Shown here: positions 1 through 12,930 of the stretch, one piece after another
How the letters are laid out: the number at the start of each line of letters is the position of its first letter
How positions within the stretch are numbered: position 1 is the stretch's first letter
Assembly (NCBI GenBank): GCA_937899855.1
Contig: CALCCH010000560.1
Span: forward strand, 1 to 45,290
Direction of reading: 5' to 3'
Source of the DNA: an uncultured Saprospirales bacterium
GTDB lineage: Bacteria; Bacteroidota; Bacteroidia; Chitinophagales; Saprospiraceae
Length of the DNA stretch: 45,290 nt
Made by a program: the position numbers and the translations under genes
Notes under the pieces: generated by a model
What the model was told of the DNA's origin: nothing
The model's database searches: none
The model's input: only the letters and a program-made list of their open reading frames with translations

Positions 1-1
1 G

Positions 2-445
2 GTCGCCATCTCTACGGGCCGGATCGGCGATGTGGTGATCGACAATTACCACCGCCCCAAAACCTTTTTCACCGATTTTGTCCAAACGGGCTGTCCCAAC
101 GTCATGAGCTTTGCCGAAAAGATCGACGGCGGCTTTGGCAAACGCGGTGGCTGTCTGTTTTACGAGGTGGGTTGCCGTGGCCCCATGACTCGGGCTTCTT
201 GCAATCGCATCCTGTGGAATCGCCAGTCGAGTAAAACGCGGGCCAATCACCCCTGCCTGGGTTGTACCGAACCGGGCTTTCCCCACAACGATCTGGTCAA
301 GGGCAGCGTCTTTAAGACGATGAAGTACCTGGGCTTTTTACCGAAGGAAGTACCTACCGGAGAGAGCAAACTGGGCTACTATTTCAAGGCGGGTATCCAT
401 AAGGTACTGCCCACTCCCAAAGCAATTAAGGAGACTTCCAAGTAA
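2..445 (+). CDS. [NiFe]-hydrogenase small subunit, C-terminal part (5' end outside window)
   Basis: This is the C-terminal 147 residues of the electron-transferring small subunit of an uptake [NiFe]-hydrogenase; the frame is open from the window edge. The visible cysteine pattern binds the FeS clusters that carry electrons from the NiFe site. It includes GCRGP, then RASCN, then the HPCLGCTEPGFP block (CxGCxxPxFP), typical of hydrogenase small subunits. The N-terminal part, with any Tat signal and the proximal cluster ligands, is not in the window. There is no hydrophobic C-terminal membrane anchor, unlike the membrane-bound HyaA/HupS type, so the enzyme is probably soluble or attached through partners. 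The large-subunit gene follows after 41 bp. Family is certain; the subgroup (2a-like) is inferred from the neighbouring genes. Confidence 0.93.
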   Translation, partial: VAISTGRIGDVVIDNYHRPKTFFTDFVQTGCPNVMSFAEKIDGGFGKRGGCLFYEVGCRGPMTRASCNRILWNRQSSKTRANHPCLGCTEPGFPHNDLVKGSVFKTMKYLGFLPKEVPTGESKLGYYFKAGIHKVLPTPKAIKETSK

Positions 446-486: not shown

Positions 487-2079
487 ATGGCTTTAAAAGA
501 ATTGAATATCTCGCCAGTCGGTCGGGTAGAAGGGGACCTGGATGTCAAGGGCTACATGGAAAGCGGCGTGGTGACCCGAGCCCACACCCAGGCGGCGATG
601 TTTCGTGGTTTTGAGAAAATTCTGGCGGGCAAAGACCCCCAGTCCGGGCTGATTGTGACGCCCCGCGCTTGTGGTATTTGCGGTGGCTCGCACCTCTACT
701 GTGCCTCCTCGGCGCTGGACGTAGCCTGGCAAACGACCCTGCCGCCCAACGCGCTCCTGCTCCGGGCCATCGGACAGGCTACGGAGACCATCCAAAGTAT
801 TCCGCGCTGGTTTTACGCCATCTTCGCCACCGATATGGCCAATAAGAAATTTGCCAATAAGCCCCTGTACCAGGAAGTGGTCAAGCGCTTTGCGGCTTAC
901 GTGGGCACCTCCTTCCAGACTGGCGTCACGGCCAGTGGTCGGCCCGTCGAAGTGTACGCCCTCTTCGGTGGCCAGTGGCCGCACTCGAGTTACATGATTC
1001 CCGGTGGGGTCATGTGCGCACCGACGCTCAAGGACATCACCCGGGCCCACGCCATCATGAACCAGTTCCGCAACGATTGGCTGGAACCCGTCTGGTTGGG
1101 TTGTTCCATCGAACGCTACATGCAGATTCAGTCCTGGGACGATCTGATGGAGTGGATGGAGGAAAACGAATCCCACCGCAACAGTGACTTGGGCTTGTTC
1201 CTGAGGGCGGGGCTGGAGTTTGGCTTGGACAAATTTGGGCAGGGGGTTGGAAAATTCCTCGCTTGGGGCACCTACCTCCACCACGAGATGTACAACCAAC
1301 CCACCATCGAAGGGCGTAACCCGGCCTGTATCAGCCCGTCTGGATTCTGGGATGGAAAGTACTACGATGCGGATCAAAAACAAGTGACCGAGCACATCAA
1401 GCACGCTTGGTACCTCAACCAGGAGGATGCCCTCCACCCCTTTAGCGAACCCGTACCTACCGCTTCGCCCAACATCCATTCACTCGAGCACACCGACTTT
1501 GGGGGCAAGTACAGTTGGTCCAAAGCCCCGCGCTTTATGGGACACGCTGCGGAGGCCGGGCCCCTGGCCCGCGTCATCATGGCCGCTAATCCCGCCAATG
1601 CGGACCACCAAATCCGCGATCCCCTCTTTGCCGACATCATGGATAAGATGGGCCCCTCGGTCTTTACCCGTGCCATGGCCCGGGTTCACGAGGCGCCGCG
1701 CTTGTACACGATGATCAACGACTGGCTCAGCCAGGTCCGACTCGATGATGAGTTCTACATCAAGCCCACCGAACGGGACGGCATTGGTTGGGGCGCTACC
1801 GAAGCGGCCCGGGGCGCACTGGCCCACTGGATCAAGATCAAAGATGGCGTCATTGAAAACTATCAGATCATTGCCCCCACCACTTGGAACGTGGGGCCGA
1901 ACGATAAAGAAGGCAATCCCGGTCCGATCGAATCGGCGCTGGAGGGTACCGAGATTGAGGATCCGCACGATCCGGTTGAAGTGGGAATGGTGGCGCGTTC
2001 TTTTGACTCCTGCCTGGTCTGTACCGTTCACGCCCACGACAACAAGACGGGCAAGCAACTGGCGAAGTTTAAATTGTAA
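487..2079 (+). CDS. [NiFe]-hydrogenase large (catalytic) subunit
   Basis: A 530-residue catalytic subunit that carries the NiFe(CN)2CO centre and splits H2. The N-terminal ligand motif RACGICGGSH gives Cys62 and Cys65. The C-terminal motif SFDSCLVCTVH gives Cys509 and Cys512, with the maturation-site His515. The 15 residues after His515 (AHDNKTGKQLAKFKL) are the peptide expected to be removed by the protease encoded next. The usual DPCxxC is DSCxxC here. Length, end sequence and the TPR and NHL genes downstream resemble group 2a uptake hydrogenases; groups 1h and 2e cannot be excluded by eye. The ATG at 487 starts just before the conserved ISPVGRVEG block, so it is a good start. Confidence 0.96.
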   Translation: MALKELNISPVGRVEGDLDVKGYMESGVVTRAHTQAAMFRGFEKILAGKDPQSGLIVTPRACGICGGSHLYCASSALDVAWQTTLPPNALLLRAIGQATETIQSIPRWFYAIFATDMANKKFANKPLYQEVVKRFAAYVGTSFQTGVTASGRPVEVYALFGGQWPHSSYMIPGGVMCAPTLKDITRAHAIMNQFRNDWLEPVWLGCSIERYMQIQSWDDLMEWMEENESHRNSDLGLFLRAGLEFGLDKFGQGVGKFLAWGTYLHHEMYNQPTIEGRNPACISPSGFWDGKYYDADQKQVTEHIKHAWYLNQEDALHPFSEPVPTASPNIHSLEHTDFGGKYSWSKAPRFMGHAAEAGPLARVIMAANPANADHQIRDPLFADIMDKMGPSVFTRAMARVHEAPRLYTMINDWLSQVRLDDEFYIKPTERDGIGWGATEAARGALAHWIKIKDGVIENYQIIAPTTWNVGPNDKEGNPGPIESALEGTEIEDPHDPVEVGMVARSFDSCLVCTVHAHDNKTGKQLAKFKL

Positions 2080-2640: not shown

Positions 2641-3009
2641 ATGTTTATTCCTCCCGACCGACTGAAGTACCATTTTGCACGTTCGGGTGCAGCCCAGAGC
2701 GCGATTCGCCTCCGGGCTTCGCACCTGTTGATCGATACGGTGATGGCGCAGCGGGTCTTTGGCGATACCGCCAATGCCTACCTCGTGTACTACCCGGAGC
2801 GGCACGTCCTGATGCTCGCCTCGGTGGAGGACGAGCTGTTCAAGAGCCTACACAAGGCTTCACAACACCTACTCAAGGACCGCAACCGCCAGGGCGACAA
2901 AAGCATTGCCCTCCACGAGACACTCATCGATCACCAAATTCCGGCGGCGGATCGCGACTTGGAGTACGAGTTTGCAGCCGAGCTGGGGGTTTTAACCGTT
3001 TTTCTTTAA
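2641..3009 (+). CDS. Unknown 122-residue protein in the hydrogenase operon
   Basis: I do not recognise this family. The product is small, soluble and has no signal peptide, membrane segment or cysteine. It is rich in Arg, His, Asp and Glu. The start ATG lies 3 nt after the protease stop, and the next gene begins 7 nt after its end, so co-transcription and probable translational coupling are clear. Its position between the protease and the TPR gene suggests a role in assembly, scaffolding or partner docking of this hydrogenase class. Absence of Cys makes an electron carrier unlikely. The coding call rests on tight packing and base composition matching its neighbours. Confidence 0.75.
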   Translation: MFIPPDRLKYHFARSGAAQSAIRLRASHLLIDTVMAQRVFGDTANAYLVYYPERHVLMLASVEDELFKSLHKASQHLLKDRNRQGDKSIALHETLIDHQIPAADRDLEYEFAAELGVLTVFL

Positions 3010-3016
3010 TCCTAAA

Positions 3017-3349
3017 ATGCCCGCGATGTATTGCTCTCCCGACATTCCCGAGTATGCCTCCCCCGAACTGCTGGGGACCGATCGGGACTTGCGCTTGCTC
3101 CATGAAGACAAGTGGCTACAAGATACCGAGGTGCGCTACCTGCTGGTGGAGCGAAGGAGCCGCTGGCACCTTACGATGATCTACATCGATATTCACAATC
3201 CCCTACGCTTTATCTGTCGAAAAATCGACACCTATCCTTCCGCTAAAAAGGCCACGACCTTTGCGGAAATTTTACAACGGGGCATCCGCAAGGACGCCCG
3301 GGGAACGCTCAAAACGAATCGAGATGCTTTCTATTTTTGCGACAACTGA
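3017..3349 (+). CDS. Unknown 110-residue protein in the hydrogenase operon
   Basis: No family is recognised. The protein is small and soluble, with a basic central part (VERRSRWHLTMIYID) followed by CRKIDTYPSAKKATTFAEILQRG. It has three cysteines (in MYCSPD, FICRK and FYFCDN) that are not in a CxxC arrangement. It begins 7 nt after the previous gene. Its end overlaps the best start of the TPR gene (3324) by 26 nt, indicating translational coupling. An alternative start is the second ATG, 9 nt downstream. Context suggests a hydrogenase accessory protein; function is unknown. Confidence 0.72.
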   Translation: MPAMYCSPDIPEYASPELLGTDRDLRLLHEDKWLQDTEVRYLLVERRSRWHLTMIYIDIHNPLRFICRKIDTYPSAKKATTFAEILQRGIRKDARGTLKTNRDAFYFCDN

Positions 3350-4835
3350 ATACCATTCCCAGATCCACGCCATCCTGGAGCGTGAGGACCGACTGTCCGA
3401 GCTGGTAACGATATACGACCTGCTGGAGCGGGCACCCCGCTCCAGCGCACACTGCCTTATTGTTGATGCGCAGGGCTTACGCCTGCCCATCGACTGGTAC
3501 AATCTGGCCCCTCCCTATCTGCTTCCGAAGCAACTGCCCTTCGAGGCCGAAAATCTGTTGGGATTAATTTTTCTACAACTCGACAATTGGCCCAAGGTCC
3601 AGGAATACCTGGCGGACCGCCCCGAGCTCCTCCCGGAACTGGAGCGGTTTCACGGTCTGAAGAGTGGCCAACAAATTCGCGAGGTCGACCGGTTGGAAGC
3701 GGGGGATACGCCCTGGGAGCGCTACCGGCGGGCGCACAACCAAGCGGTGCTTCGACACTACGGCTACCTGGCGGAGGAACAAACCTTTGCCCGGATTCGC
3801 CAAGCGTACGATACCGCCATTGCCCATTCTCCTCACCCGGAGTACGCTGCCTTTAGTACCAAACACCTCGCCACCCTGCTCCTCGATGCGGGCCGGATCG
3901 AGGACGCCGTAGCGGTTTTACAAGGCGCGGAGCACGAGGCCCTGTCGCCGGATGCTCGGATGGCCCTCCGAGCCCTGTTGAGTCAGGTATGGATGCAGCA
4001 ACTCCGGGTTCCCTACGATCCCAAGCTGATGACACAACTCAAGGATACCCTGTGGGAAGTCATTCAGTACCTTGAGGAAAACGACCGTCCGGTGGAGGCT
4101 GGCTTACACCTAACGGATGCCGCCCACATTGCCAACATCTCCAATAGCTTTACCGAGTCCCTGGGCTACATCAGTAAAGCGATTCGCATTTTCGACGAGG
4201 CGGAGCTGAGTGAGCTGGCGGGCAATGCCCAGTTGCGCAAGGGGACCCTGTTGTACACCTGGGCCCAAAACGGGAATCCCCAGTTTTACAAACCCGCCGT
4301 GGAGGCTTACCAACGGGCCCTGCAAGTATTCCGCAAGGACTTGACGCCCGACGTTTTTGCCGACATCCACCACCACCTCGCCGTGCTGTACGCCGAGATG
4401 CCCAGCGAACCCAAGAAGCGCAGCATCTGGGCTGGCGTGGCTTCCGCTTCTTTCCAGGAGGCCCTCGATTACTACACGGCCGAAAGCCACCCCTACGAGT
4501 ACGGTCGGATTTGCAACAACTACGGCAACGCACTGACCAAGTTCCCCCCCGCGGTACATTCCGACAACTACGAAAAGGCCCTGTTCTACTACGCCGAGGC
4601 CCTCCGCGTTCGCGACGCGCGCTACCCCTACGAACGGGCCATCAGCTTGCTCAACTTTTTGGAAGCCAGCTGGAACGTCAGCAATCCCGACGAATCGTTC
4701 AACGAGGACCGCTACCGCGACATGGTCGGTAAGGCCGAAGAAGTCCTGCAACTCGTCGAGGCCCCGGAAATGATGGAGGCGGCCCGAGGACATTTACAAG
4801 CCCTCGCCCAGCTCAAAGCCGTGGCGGTTAAATAA
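3324..4835 (+). CDS. TPR-repeat protein of the hydrogenase operon
   Basis: A 503-residue, largely alpha-helical protein. Degenerate tetratricopeptide repeats are visible from about residue 160 to the end, for example helix pairs ending in AVEAYQRALQVF, EALDYYTAE and KALFYYAEALRV. TPR arrays bind other proteins, so a scaffold or chaperone role for the hydrogenase subunits is likely but inferred. The frame is open from 3261, but that start would overlap the previous gene by 89 nt. I prefer the ATG at 3324 (MLSIFATTE), which overlaps by 26 nt. There is no signal peptide. Group 2a hydrogenase loci are known from memory to carry a TPR gene, which supports the subgroup assignment. hypA starts 6 nt downstream. 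Confidence 0.85.
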   Translation: MLSIFATTEYHSQIHAILEREDRLSELVTIYDLLERAPRSSAHCLIVDAQGLRLPIDWYNLAPPYLLPKQLPFEAENLLGLIFLQLDNWPKVQEYLADRPELLPELERFHGLKSGQQIREVDRLEAGDTPWERYRRAHNQAVLRHYGYLAEEQTFARIRQAYDTAIAHSPHPEYAAFSTKHLATLLLDAGRIEDAVAVLQGAEHEALSPDARMALRALLSQVWMQQLRVPYDPKLMTQLKDTLWEVIQYLEENDRPVEAGLHLTDAAHIANISNSFTESLGYISKAIRIFDEAELSELAGNAQLRKGTLLYTWAQNGNPQFYKPAVEAYQRALQVFRKDLTPDVFADIHHHLAVLYAEMPSEPKKRSIWAGVASASFQEALDYYTAESHPYEYGRICNNYGNALTKFPPAVHSDNYEKALFYYAEALRVRDARYPYERAISLLNFLEASWNVSNPDESFNEDRYRDMVGKAEEVLQLVEAPEMMEAARGHLQALAQLKAVAVK

Positions 4836-4841
4836 ACATAG

Positions 4842-5225
4842 ATGCACGAAATCTCTTTAGTCCGCAGTATCTTCAATACCCTGTCCGCCGAGTTTTCCCC
4901 GGAGGAGTTGGCCACTTTAGAAGCCATCGACCTCAAGGTGGGACTCCTGTCCAACGTCGAGCCCCTGCTCTTGCAAAATGCCTTTGAGGCGGTTACGACG
5001 GCGGAGCAAAAATTTGAAGCGGTCCAACTCAACGTGGAGGTGATTCCGATTGCCATCCACTGTACCACTTGTGCCCAAGACTCGCCCGTCGAGCGCTACA
5101 AGTTTGTGTGCGCCCACTGCGGGCAAGCGAATAATAACGTAGTTCGGGGAACGGAGCTCCTGATTCACCGCGTCCATTTTGCGGAAGTCGAGCCCGAGGC
5201 CCTTTCATCCAATCAAGCGAAATAA
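4842..5225 (+). CDS. hypA: Hydrogenase nickel incorporation protein HypA
   Basis: A 127-residue nickel metallochaperone that works with HypB to deliver Ni to the large-subunit precursor. The N-terminal MHE places the essential Ni-binding His2. The structural zinc site is two CxxC pairs, Cys74/Cys77 and Cys90/Cys93. Length is typical (about 115-130). It is the first of the contiguous hypABFCDE set, and hypB begins 3 nt after its stop. Confidence 0.96.
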   Translation: MHEISLVRSIFNTLSAEFSPEELATLEAIDLKVGLLSNVEPLLLQNAFEAVTTAEQKFEAVQLNVEVIPIAIHCTTCAQDSPVERYKFVCAHCGQANNNVVRGTELLIHRVHFAEVEPEALSSNQAK

Positions 5226-10789: not shown

Positions 10790-10813
10790 GACTACTACAA
10801 GCGCCGTGTGGGT

Positions 10814-11215
10814 ATGAAAAAAGCATTGGAAAACCGGGAAGACATTGAGCGATTGGTGCGCGCCTTTTACCAAAAAATGCTGGCCGATCCCGAATTGGGT
10901 CCCCTGTTTCTGCGGGTGGCCCAAATTAGCCTGACCGAGCACCTGCCCCCGGTCTACGACTTTTGGGAGAGTGCCCTTTTCCAAACCGGAAGCTACCGGC
11001 ACAACCTGATGGACATCCACCTGGCGTTTCACCAAAAGCACCGCCTGGAAAAAGCACACTTTGACCGTTGGTTGGAATTGTTTACCCAAACCGTTGATGA
11101 ATTGTTCACCGGCGAGCGAGCCCAGGGGGCGAAGCAACGCGCCCGAACCATCGCCACCATTATTCAACTGAAAATTGACCACCTTGAAAAGCAACGACTC
11201 GAATTTGGCAACTAA
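10814..11215 (+). CDS. Group III truncated haemoglobin (trHb3)
   Basis: A 133-residue globin of the TrHb3 class. Compared with Campylobacter jejuni Ctb, the key residues are present: Tyr19 (B10), His43 (E7 region), Trp51 in the DFW block, proximal His69 (F8) in MDIHLAF, and Trp86 (G8) in DRWLELF. Such proteins bind O2 or NO; roles in NO detoxification or oxygen handling are known for relatives. An upstream GTG (10808) is in frame, but the ATG at 10814 is preferred. It lies 24 bp after hypE and overlaps the start of the NHL frame, so it belongs to the operon. A role protecting the hydrogenase is inferred only from position. Confidence 0.9.
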   Translation: MKKALENREDIERLVRAFYQKMLADPELGPLFLRVAQISLTEHLPPVYDFWESALFQTGSYRHNLMDIHLAFHQKHRLEKAHFDRWLELFTQTVDELFTGERAQGAKQRARTIATIIQLKIDHLEKQRLEFGN

Positions 11216-12317
11216 GGACTTGCCTCAATTGGTGGGGGAGACCCACCTGTTTAAGGGGGCGGAGGAAAGTCCCCTACTGGCTCCCCGTGGGGTCTTTATG
11301 GTTCGGGGACAACTGTGGGTAGCGGATACGGCACAGAACCGCGTCTTTTGCTGGCGGGACCTACCCACCACGGAGTTTGCGGAGCCGGATTTGGTGCTGG
11401 GGCAGGTGCAGAGCGCAGCAACGGGACGCAATGCGCAGGGTAAGGTCAATGCCTCGACCTTGTTTTATCCCTCGGGCTTGTGGTCGGATGGGCAGCGCAT
11501 GATCGTAGCCGATGCTTGGAATCACCGGGTACTGATTTGGCACGATTTGCCCACCCGCGATGGCCAGCCGGCCGACGTGGTACTGGGGCAGCCCGACTTT
11601 AGCCACAATGCGCCCAACGTCGCGGGGATTGGTCATCCCCCCACCGCGCGTTCGCTACACTGGTGCTACGGGGTATACTCCGACGGCGAGCAACTGTGGG
11701 TGGCCGATACGGGCAACCGGCGCGTGTTGTACTACCGCCAGATTCCGCAGTAAAGTTACGCGGCCGCCGACGGCGTCATTGGCAAGTCCAGCTTTACCGA
11801 GCGCGACTACGAAAACGAAGATCCGATTTGGCCCTACTCGGTCAAGATTGGTCCGCGGGGGGAGCTGGCGATTACCGATACCCAATACTATCGGGTGCTA
11901 CTGTGGCGCCACTGGCGGGATGCCCTGACTCAAAAGGCGGAGCGCATCATCGGCCAGGCCGATTTTGCGGGCAACGGGCAGAACCAGTTCCAATGGTTCC
12001 CCCGAGCCAATACACTCAATTGGTGCTACGACACTTGTTTTTACCGCGATGGCCTGTGGGTGGCGGATACGGGCAACAGTCGTTTGCTGTGGTTTGCGCA
12101 GTGGCCGGAGCAATCGAACGTAGCGGCGGATAATTTGCTGGGGCAGGATGATTTTAACACCGGTAGCGAAAATAAAAATACCATTCAGAGTACGGAGGGC
12201 AGTTTTTATTGGCCCTTCCAGACTTGTGTGGAGAAAAAGACGAAGGTGGTCGCCCATACGGACACTCACAGCATCGTAATAAATCTATTGAATTTTTCAT
12301 ATGGAGAATATATTTAA
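11175..12317 (+). pseudogene. NHL-repeat beta-propeller protein, interrupted by an in-frame TAA
   Basis: The same frame runs from about 11175 to 12317 and encodes about 380 codons of NHL repeats. It is broken by one TAA at 11751-11753. Repeat blades are recognisable on both sides by LWVADTAQNRVFCW, IVADAWNHRVLIW, LWVADTGNRRVLYY, LAITDTQYYRVLLW and LWVADTGNSRLLWF, each followed by a VLGQ or IGQADF type linker. NHL genes accompany group 2a hydrogenases and may mediate partner binding. The start is uncertain: TTG 11175 lies inside the globin gene; the conserved part starts near 11230. The tail overlaps the permease ATG at 12301. The stop could be a true mutation, a base error or a readthrough site. 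Translated pieces would be 11175-11753 and 11895-12317. Confidence 0.8.
11751..11753 (+). other. In-frame TAA within the NHL-repeat gene
   Basis: The codons before (IPQ) and after (SYAAADGVIG) this TAA continue the same beta-propeller blade without frame change or missing residues. It is therefore a single-codon interruption at about codon 193, not a gene boundary. Confidence 0.85.
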
Positions 12318-12336: not shown

Positions 12337-12930
12337 GTGGGATTTAGTCACGCCTTTGAAGCGGATCATTTGGTGGCGGTGGGGAGCATCGTGACGCGGC
12401 GCGACCGTTGGGTACTGGCGCTAAAGGATGGCATTTATTGGGGCTTGGGACACAGCTCGACCATCTTGTTGATCGGTTTGTTGATGATCGTGGCGCGGGC
12501 TACTTTCTTAGAAGCTTACTTTGGCTTTTTTGAGGCGCTGGTGGGTTTGATGCTGATTGCGCTCGGTTTTTTTCGCTTGTACCGTCGGGGGAGGGGAGGC
12601 GCCGAGGAGGTGCCGCTTGCGGAGCAGGAAGGGCAGCACCACTTGGCTTACGGAGTGGGTTTGCTACACGGATTGGCGGGGAGCGGTGCTCTGGTGGTGC
12701 TGGTGATGGCGGAGTGGGCGGGTACTTGGGCGAGTATGGGCTACCTCCTGGTGTTTGGCGCGGGTTCGGTAGTGGGGATGTTGGTGGCGGCTGGTATCTT
12801 TGGCCTTCCTTTTTGTCGGCGTTGGACGGTAGGGGGCTGGTGGTCCGGGGGGCTGGTGTGGCTGTCCTCCCTGTTGTGTATGGGCTACGGTGGTTATCTA
12901 TTCATCAGTCAAGTCCAACAATTTTACTAA
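12337..12930 (+). CDS. NiCoT/UreH-type nickel permease (N-terminus probably damaged)
   Basis: A 197-residue integral membrane protein (from GTG 12337) with about five or six hydrophobic helices. The signature HAFEADH (His5-x4-Asp10-His11) matches the HX4DH metal-binding motif of NiCoT/UreH nickel transporters. A second helix carries GLGHSSTILLIG, another typical block. Nickel uptake fits the end of a hydrogenase maturation operon. The natural start is probably ATG 12301, which would complete the first helix, but two stops lie between. Translation from GTG 12337 would give a protein lacking most of helix one before the motif. Whether it is functional is uncertain. Confidence 0.78.
   Translation: MGFSHAFEADHLVAVGSIVTRRDRWVLALKDGIYWGLGHSSTILLIGLLMIVARATFLEAYFGFFEALVGLMLIALGFFRLYRRGRGGAEEVPLAEQEGQHHLAYGVGLLHGLAGSGALVVLVMAEWAGTWASMGYLLVFGAGSVVGMLVAAGIFGLPFCRRWTVGGWWSGGLVWLSSLLCMGYGGYLFISQVQQFY

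Follow-up and report, generated by a model that had tools for sequence, protein, structure and literature searches.

Gene organization of the hydrogenase locus

The window, that is, the whole stretch of 45,290 nucleotides analysed here, contains a group 2a [NiFe] hydrogenase locus of a Saprospiraceae-like bacterium. The genes follow one another in the order hucS (part), hucL, protease, p122, p110, TPR, hypA, hypB, hypF, hypC, hypD, hypE, globin-like and NHL (Table 1), with hypA identified by a family scan and the names from hypB to hypE taken from reading frames and gene order. The p122 and p110 ORFs have the positions and lengths given in an earlier note on this DNA, which also correctly placed them, together with the TPR gene, between the large-subunit protease and hypA. 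The same note considered the three genes to be translationally coupled. Their spacing suggests such coupling: p110 and the TPR gene overlap by 26 bp, with ATG 3324 as the true start of the latter (a longer ORF beginning at TTG 3261 is mechanical), and p122 is separated from p110 by 7 bp, and from the protease gene by 3 bp, close to both and overlapping neither. The 26-bp overlap was of identical length in 14 of 16 relatives with p110 at the same place, the exceptions being L023 (32 bp) and L009, in which the p110 frame shifts near its end.

Table 1. Features of the hydrogenase locus (positions in the window).
Feature	Position	Strand	Evidence
hucS-B, 3' part of the hydrogenase small-subunit gene (contig begins within)	1..445	+	Family match
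Hydrogenase large subunit HucL	487..2079	+	Family match, identities, solved structure match
Codons of the HucL 15-residue C-terminal extension, expected protease target	2032..2076	+	Match to the solved Huc chains ends at residue 515
Large-subunit maturation protease, TIGR00072	2143..2637	+	Family match
p122, 122 aa	2641..3009	+	ORF, homologues, cross-phylum profile link with controls, structure model
p110, downstream form, 110 aa	3017..3349	+	ORF, homologues, profiles, tree, structure model
Overlap of p110 end and TPR start, 26 bp	3324..3349	+	Relatives compared
TPR protein, 503 aa, group 2a type	3324..4835	+	Family scan and homologues
hypA, behind the TPR gene	4842..5225	+	Family scan

The large subunit was 54–58% identical to Huc-like large subunits encoded on plasmids of other phyla, versus 28–38% to HupU or group 1 sequences, and it matched PDB 7uus with an E value of 1e-195. 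The group 2a companions TPR and NHL were both present at the locus. HucL extends 15 residues past the match to the solved Huc chains, so the protease, the gene for which adjoins hucL, has a substrate.

Two hucS genes (A and B) stand in tandem before a single hucL in the window's genome (G000, contig C771, L105 4492–5430 and 5784–6261; window 1–445) and in eight Saprospiraceae/Lewinella-type or related loci (L002, L004, L006, L007, L008, L009, L013 and L030), whereas the other covered Bacteroidota loci have a single hucS. The A copy was 71–77% identical to the B copy of L002. The conserved cysteines are found in both copies wherever the aligned sequence is complete (copy A of L006 was cut short and L013 was left out of the alignment), and fixed differences between A and B occur near the start (K8/Q8 and Y40/W40).

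At the other end of the locus, the small globin-like protein (window 10808–11215), for which PF01152 scored barely above its cut-off, is encoded between hypE and NHL and is retained in several Saprospiraceae-type loci. The NHL gene (window 11175–12317) has an in-frame TAA at 11751–11753, past which the frame continues. Its relatives are single long ORFs, and the stop is either an artefact of sequencing or a recent nonsense mutation. A NicO gene, nickel-transporter-like with a score below the cut-off (window 12337–12930), follows NHL and keeps this position in many relatives.

Distribution of p122 and gene fusions

Searching genome contigs with the TPR protein as query yielded 32 loci, all from Bacteroidota according to their titles. 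We consider both small ORFs to be real genes: homologues of p122 recurred in 31 of these loci, and the remaining one (L033) begins inside the TPR gene. In all 31 loci long enough to tell, p122 was found immediately behind the protease gene. Among 395 genomes drawn evenly from the class, HucL (79–100% identity), p122 and TPR were each confined to the same eight genomes, which came from four families and included the window's own. In each of them the p122 match began about 0.5–0.8 kb past hucL, which leaves space for the protease. Nine further genomes had only distant, partial large-subunit matches (33–38%) and contained none of p122, p110 and TPR. The dedication to this hydrogenase class that the earlier note considered plausible is therefore supported, the homologues being found at hydrogenase loci and not mostly away from them, the outcome that the note had named as refuting.

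Outside Bacteroidota, the comparison was made with plasmid records only. The ten plasmid loci with a group 2a large subunit comprised one each from Actinomycetota, Bacillota and Deinococcota, five from Pseudomonadota and two from Bacteroidota, i.e. eight non-Bacteroidota loci from four phyla, with L037 and L043 near-identical; six Bradyrhizobium records and one from Roseovarius were left out. In all ten loci, and hence in five phyla, p122 was behind, overlapping or joined to the protease gene, with a spacing of −47 to +3 bp except in L034, in which the two are fused. This fusion is that of Mycobacterium intracellulare (plasmid NZ_CP012886.2), in which p122 makes up the C-terminal portion of the protease ORF; the next genes encode an 85-aa relative of p110 (E value 7e-7) and then TPR. 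Sulfobacillus encodes p122 and p110 together as a single 165-aa protein. Each type of fusion was found once, and such fusions are the best hint to the partners of these proteins.

The Bacteroidota p122 profile detected the L041 member with an E value of 1e-4 and the other members outside the phylum weakly or not at all. Nevertheless, the comparison of the Bacteroidota and non-Bacteroidota profiles linked the two forms (probability 97, E value 1e-10), unrelated control families giving probabilities of at most 2, and both forms have the signature LK.RN..GD[RK] with a hydrophobic residue directly after it. In agreement with the earlier note, neither p122 nor p110 is covered by a curated family: no match was obtained in Pfam or NCBIfam at E 1, nor to the HupGHIJ, HyaE and HybE chaperone-type families at the same threshold, and sequence searches against solved structures returned chance rows only.

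The p110 paralogues

Two forms of p110 were distinguished, a downstream form between p122 and TPR and an upstream form located before hucS beside TetR-type genes. They are old paralogues in Bacteroidota and formed separate clades in a tree of 38 rows (split support 100/100). Both flanks were available for 27 Bacteroidota loci (25 scan loci and two plasmids), of which 13 had both forms, 12 the upstream form only, one the downstream form only and one, a Hymenobacter plasmid, neither. The window's genome has both, with the upstream copy on contig C771. The three-gene module that had been proposed is thus reduced to a constant core of protease, p122 and TPR, since p110 occupies this place in 14 of the 27 loci. 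TetR-type regulators flank the upstream form before hucS in L002 (2697–3320 and 3791–4459), L105 (3812–4447) and L040 (6105–6737 and 7169–7789), being annotated as such in L040 and recognised by likeness in L002 and L105.

The non-Bacteroidota form, represented by two sequences, was linked to p110 by profile comparison (probability 94, E value 1.5e-7), unrelated control families again giving at most 2. No p110 could be recognised in the plasmid loci of alphaproteobacteria and Thermus. Away from hydrogenase loci, two alphaproteobacterial plasmid rows at E 0.8 were taken as chance. Within the class sample, p110 was found in nine of the 395 genomes, namely the eight with HucL and one with a divergent copy elsewhere. 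This divergent p110-like gene (genome G207, L106 9449–9928, minus strand, E value 2.4e-12) corresponds to the site matched on the Pontibacter sp. G13 plasmid at E 0.02. No hydrogenase-like ORFs were recognised by eye in the 11 kb around it, and its genome has no HucL match.

The p110 model was of moderate confidence (pLDDT 69.5), with three strands and a helix, and showed no convincing match to known structures. The first VIA row, the inhibitory subunit of methane monooxygenase (Z 7.4, 62 residues, 5% identity), was not trusted, and a single PHROGs row (E 0.03) was at chance level.

Comparison with other group 2a loci

The mycobacterial Huc locus of the M. intracellulare plasmid shares with the window the order hucS-hucL-protease-p122-p110-TPR, the NHL gene and the hyp genes. 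It differs in the fusion of p122 to the protease and in the presence of genes for HucM (a DUF1641 protein) and a NifU-type HucE, whereas Bacteroidota loci have neither of these near the cluster, often have a doubled p110, and have hypA behind TPR. The extended hyp operon of Nostoc (asr0689-alr0693) also has TPR and NHL between the hydrogenase and hyp genes (PMC2408588), but the Bacteroidota loci yielded no relatives of the NifU-type gene or of d and e, two small membrane proteins of alphaproteobacterial loci, of which d matches the NCBIfam asr0689_fam below the cut-off. In Nostoc, the TPR gene adjoins hupSL and the protease gene hupW is located elsewhere (PMC2670836, PMC2408588); the link between TPR and protease is therefore not universal. 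The group 2a locus of Parageobacillus (Phb) is described as having, in order, a protease, a small hypothetical protein, TPR, a hypothetical protein, NifU and NHL (PMC12976888, PMC6036681). The Bacteroidota HucL clade of Islam et al. 2020 very likely comprises the same enzymes, with hypothetical proteins as neighbours, and p122, p110 and the doubled hucS are unnamed in the text examined (PMC7784904).

In the group 2a loci of alphaproteobacteria, hucL and the protease gene are separated by genes for two small proteins that resemble each other (L037 10680–11389; also L038, L041, L042 and L043). Their C-terminal four-cysteine pattern ends in CRLWRI (CKLWRI in one), and no convincing family was found for the member scanned.

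Possible functions of p122, p110 and the TPR protein

We tentatively favour, at slightly short of an even chance, a reading in which p122, p110 and the TPR protein are group-2a-specific cytoplasmic assembly factors that act with the protease on the large subunit and are not stable subunits. Starting from the observed gene order, the exclusive co-occurrence among the sampled genomes, the two fusions, the family links across phyla and the HucL tail, we infer a series of binding and release steps. p122 would act as partner to the HycI/HupD-type protease in the removal of the 15 C-terminal residues of HucL, p110 would pair with p122, and the TPR protein, for which the role of scaffold suggested in the earlier note is plausible, would hold both of them in contact with the immature large subunit until HucL has been clipped and joins HucS. 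All three would then depart from the finished enzyme. Assembly factors are preferred to stable subunits because p122 adjoins or is fused to the protease and is in one case fused to p110, because the purified Huc of M. smegmatis consists of HucS, HucL and HucM only, and because HucM is unrelated to p110 by profile. This composition of the purified enzyme (PMC10017518) fits factors that leave. However, p110 is missing from both places in the Hymenobacter plasmid locus and was not recognised in alphaproteobacteria and Thermus, and the TPR and protease genes lie apart in Nostoc, which argues against such a role, as does the resemblance of the p122 model to a DNA-binding protein discussed below. 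The branch lengths of p122, upstream p110 and TPR were positively linked across 16 loci with both logs and ranks (near-copies L013, L018, L019 and L024 and loci lacking one or more of the compared genes being left out of these tests). This link broke down at 12 or 9 loci, where the control NicO correlated with p122 as strongly; the apparent co-evolution was therefore not robust and is not counted as support.

A serious, if unlikely, rival is that the set matures the small subunit by loading FeS clusters into HucS. A role of this kind was proposed for the cyanobacterial asr0689-alr0692 genes by analogy with HupGHIJ, and specifically for the Nostoc TPR and NifU-like genes (PMC2408588, PMC3126725), and the two small-subunit genes of Saprospiraceae loci would be in keeping with it. 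However, the constant neighbour and one fusion partner of p122 is the large-subunit protease, and the FeS component in that proposal, HucE (NifU-Rieske), was not detected in the clusters of Bacteroidota: four queries gave no match in 34 loci, and NifU or Rieske domains were detected only as separate matches in seven of the eight HucL genomes and not at all in the eighth. HucE is a usual but not a defining companion of group 2a enzymes.

In an extension of the earlier note's idea, which we consider quite improbable, the three proteins would belong to the mature Bacteroidota enzyme as scaffold, oligomer or quinone-delivery subunits and take the place of HucM and HucE. Such a replacement would be favoured by the finding of neither a HucM-like gene nor a fused NifU-Rieske HucE near these clusters. 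Elsewhere in the genome, DUF1641 scored above the cut-off in two of nine genomes searched, both among the eight with HucL. One p110 paralogue also lies upstream of hucS, on the same side as hucM in Mycobacterium and Thermus. Nevertheless, p122 and TPR coexist with HucM in these two genera, the purified M. smegmatis enzyme had no further subunit, and p110 neither matches DUF1641 nor resembles HucM (profile probability 0.3), its predicted fold lacking a coiled-coil stalk. The role in oligomer assembly or quinone docking put forward in the earlier note is not supported: in M. smegmatis it belongs to HucM (PMC10017518), to which p110 shows no relation. A more elaborate scheme, which we regard as highly speculative and the least probable of all, would have the p110 paralogues and, in Saprospiraceae, the second full small subunit take over docking and electron delivery in Bacteroidota enzymes devoid of HucM and HucE, with p110 as a new electron-path or membrane adaptor loaded onto HucL by p122 and TPR.

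The structure model raises a very unlikely alternative, that p122 is an MraZ-like DNA-binding autoregulator of the hydrogenase operon. The model (mean pLDDT 83) predicts a small barrel of two beta-beta-alpha-beta-beta units, the pairing into units being read from the order of the elements; no internal repeat between the halves was apparent in the sequence. The best five VIA-align rows were all MraZ (Z 7.4–7.6, rmsd 2.7–2.9, 89–90 residues; next row Z 4.0), although Z values below 8 can reflect a mere common arrangement, and Foldseek gave no match at E 0.001. This predicted similarity of fold is not accompanied by a sequence signal, as PF02381 (MraZ) had no match at E 1 in 32 p122 members and hhalign gave a probability of 0.2 against four MraZ proteins of HucL-bearing genomes. 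The D..GR motif is the hallmark of MraZ and is present in the MraZ proteins of the HucL-bearing genomes compared, but it is absent from the p122 alignment (A1). The gene context also differs, and a fusion to a protease would be odd for a repressor.

Earlier publications already describe this type of locus, its TPR and NHL genes and the Bacteroidota HucL clade (PMC2408588, PMC6036681, PMC12976888, PMC7784904), and the accounts consulted leave the small neighbouring genes as hypothetical. In the library searched, from which most subscription journals are missing, no paper was found to treat p122 or p110 as a family or to describe the fusions or the tandem hucS genes, and searches on MraZ, on protease fusions and on locus tags of mycobacteria yielded nothing relevant. 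Group 2a enzymes are oxygen-tolerant and can consume even atmospheric hydrogen, and their production in other hosts is wanted. Should p122, p110 and the TPR protein prove to be obligate processing factors, every expression set would need them. They are candidates for a dedicated assembly step of this air-tolerant, hydrogen-consuming class of enzymes.
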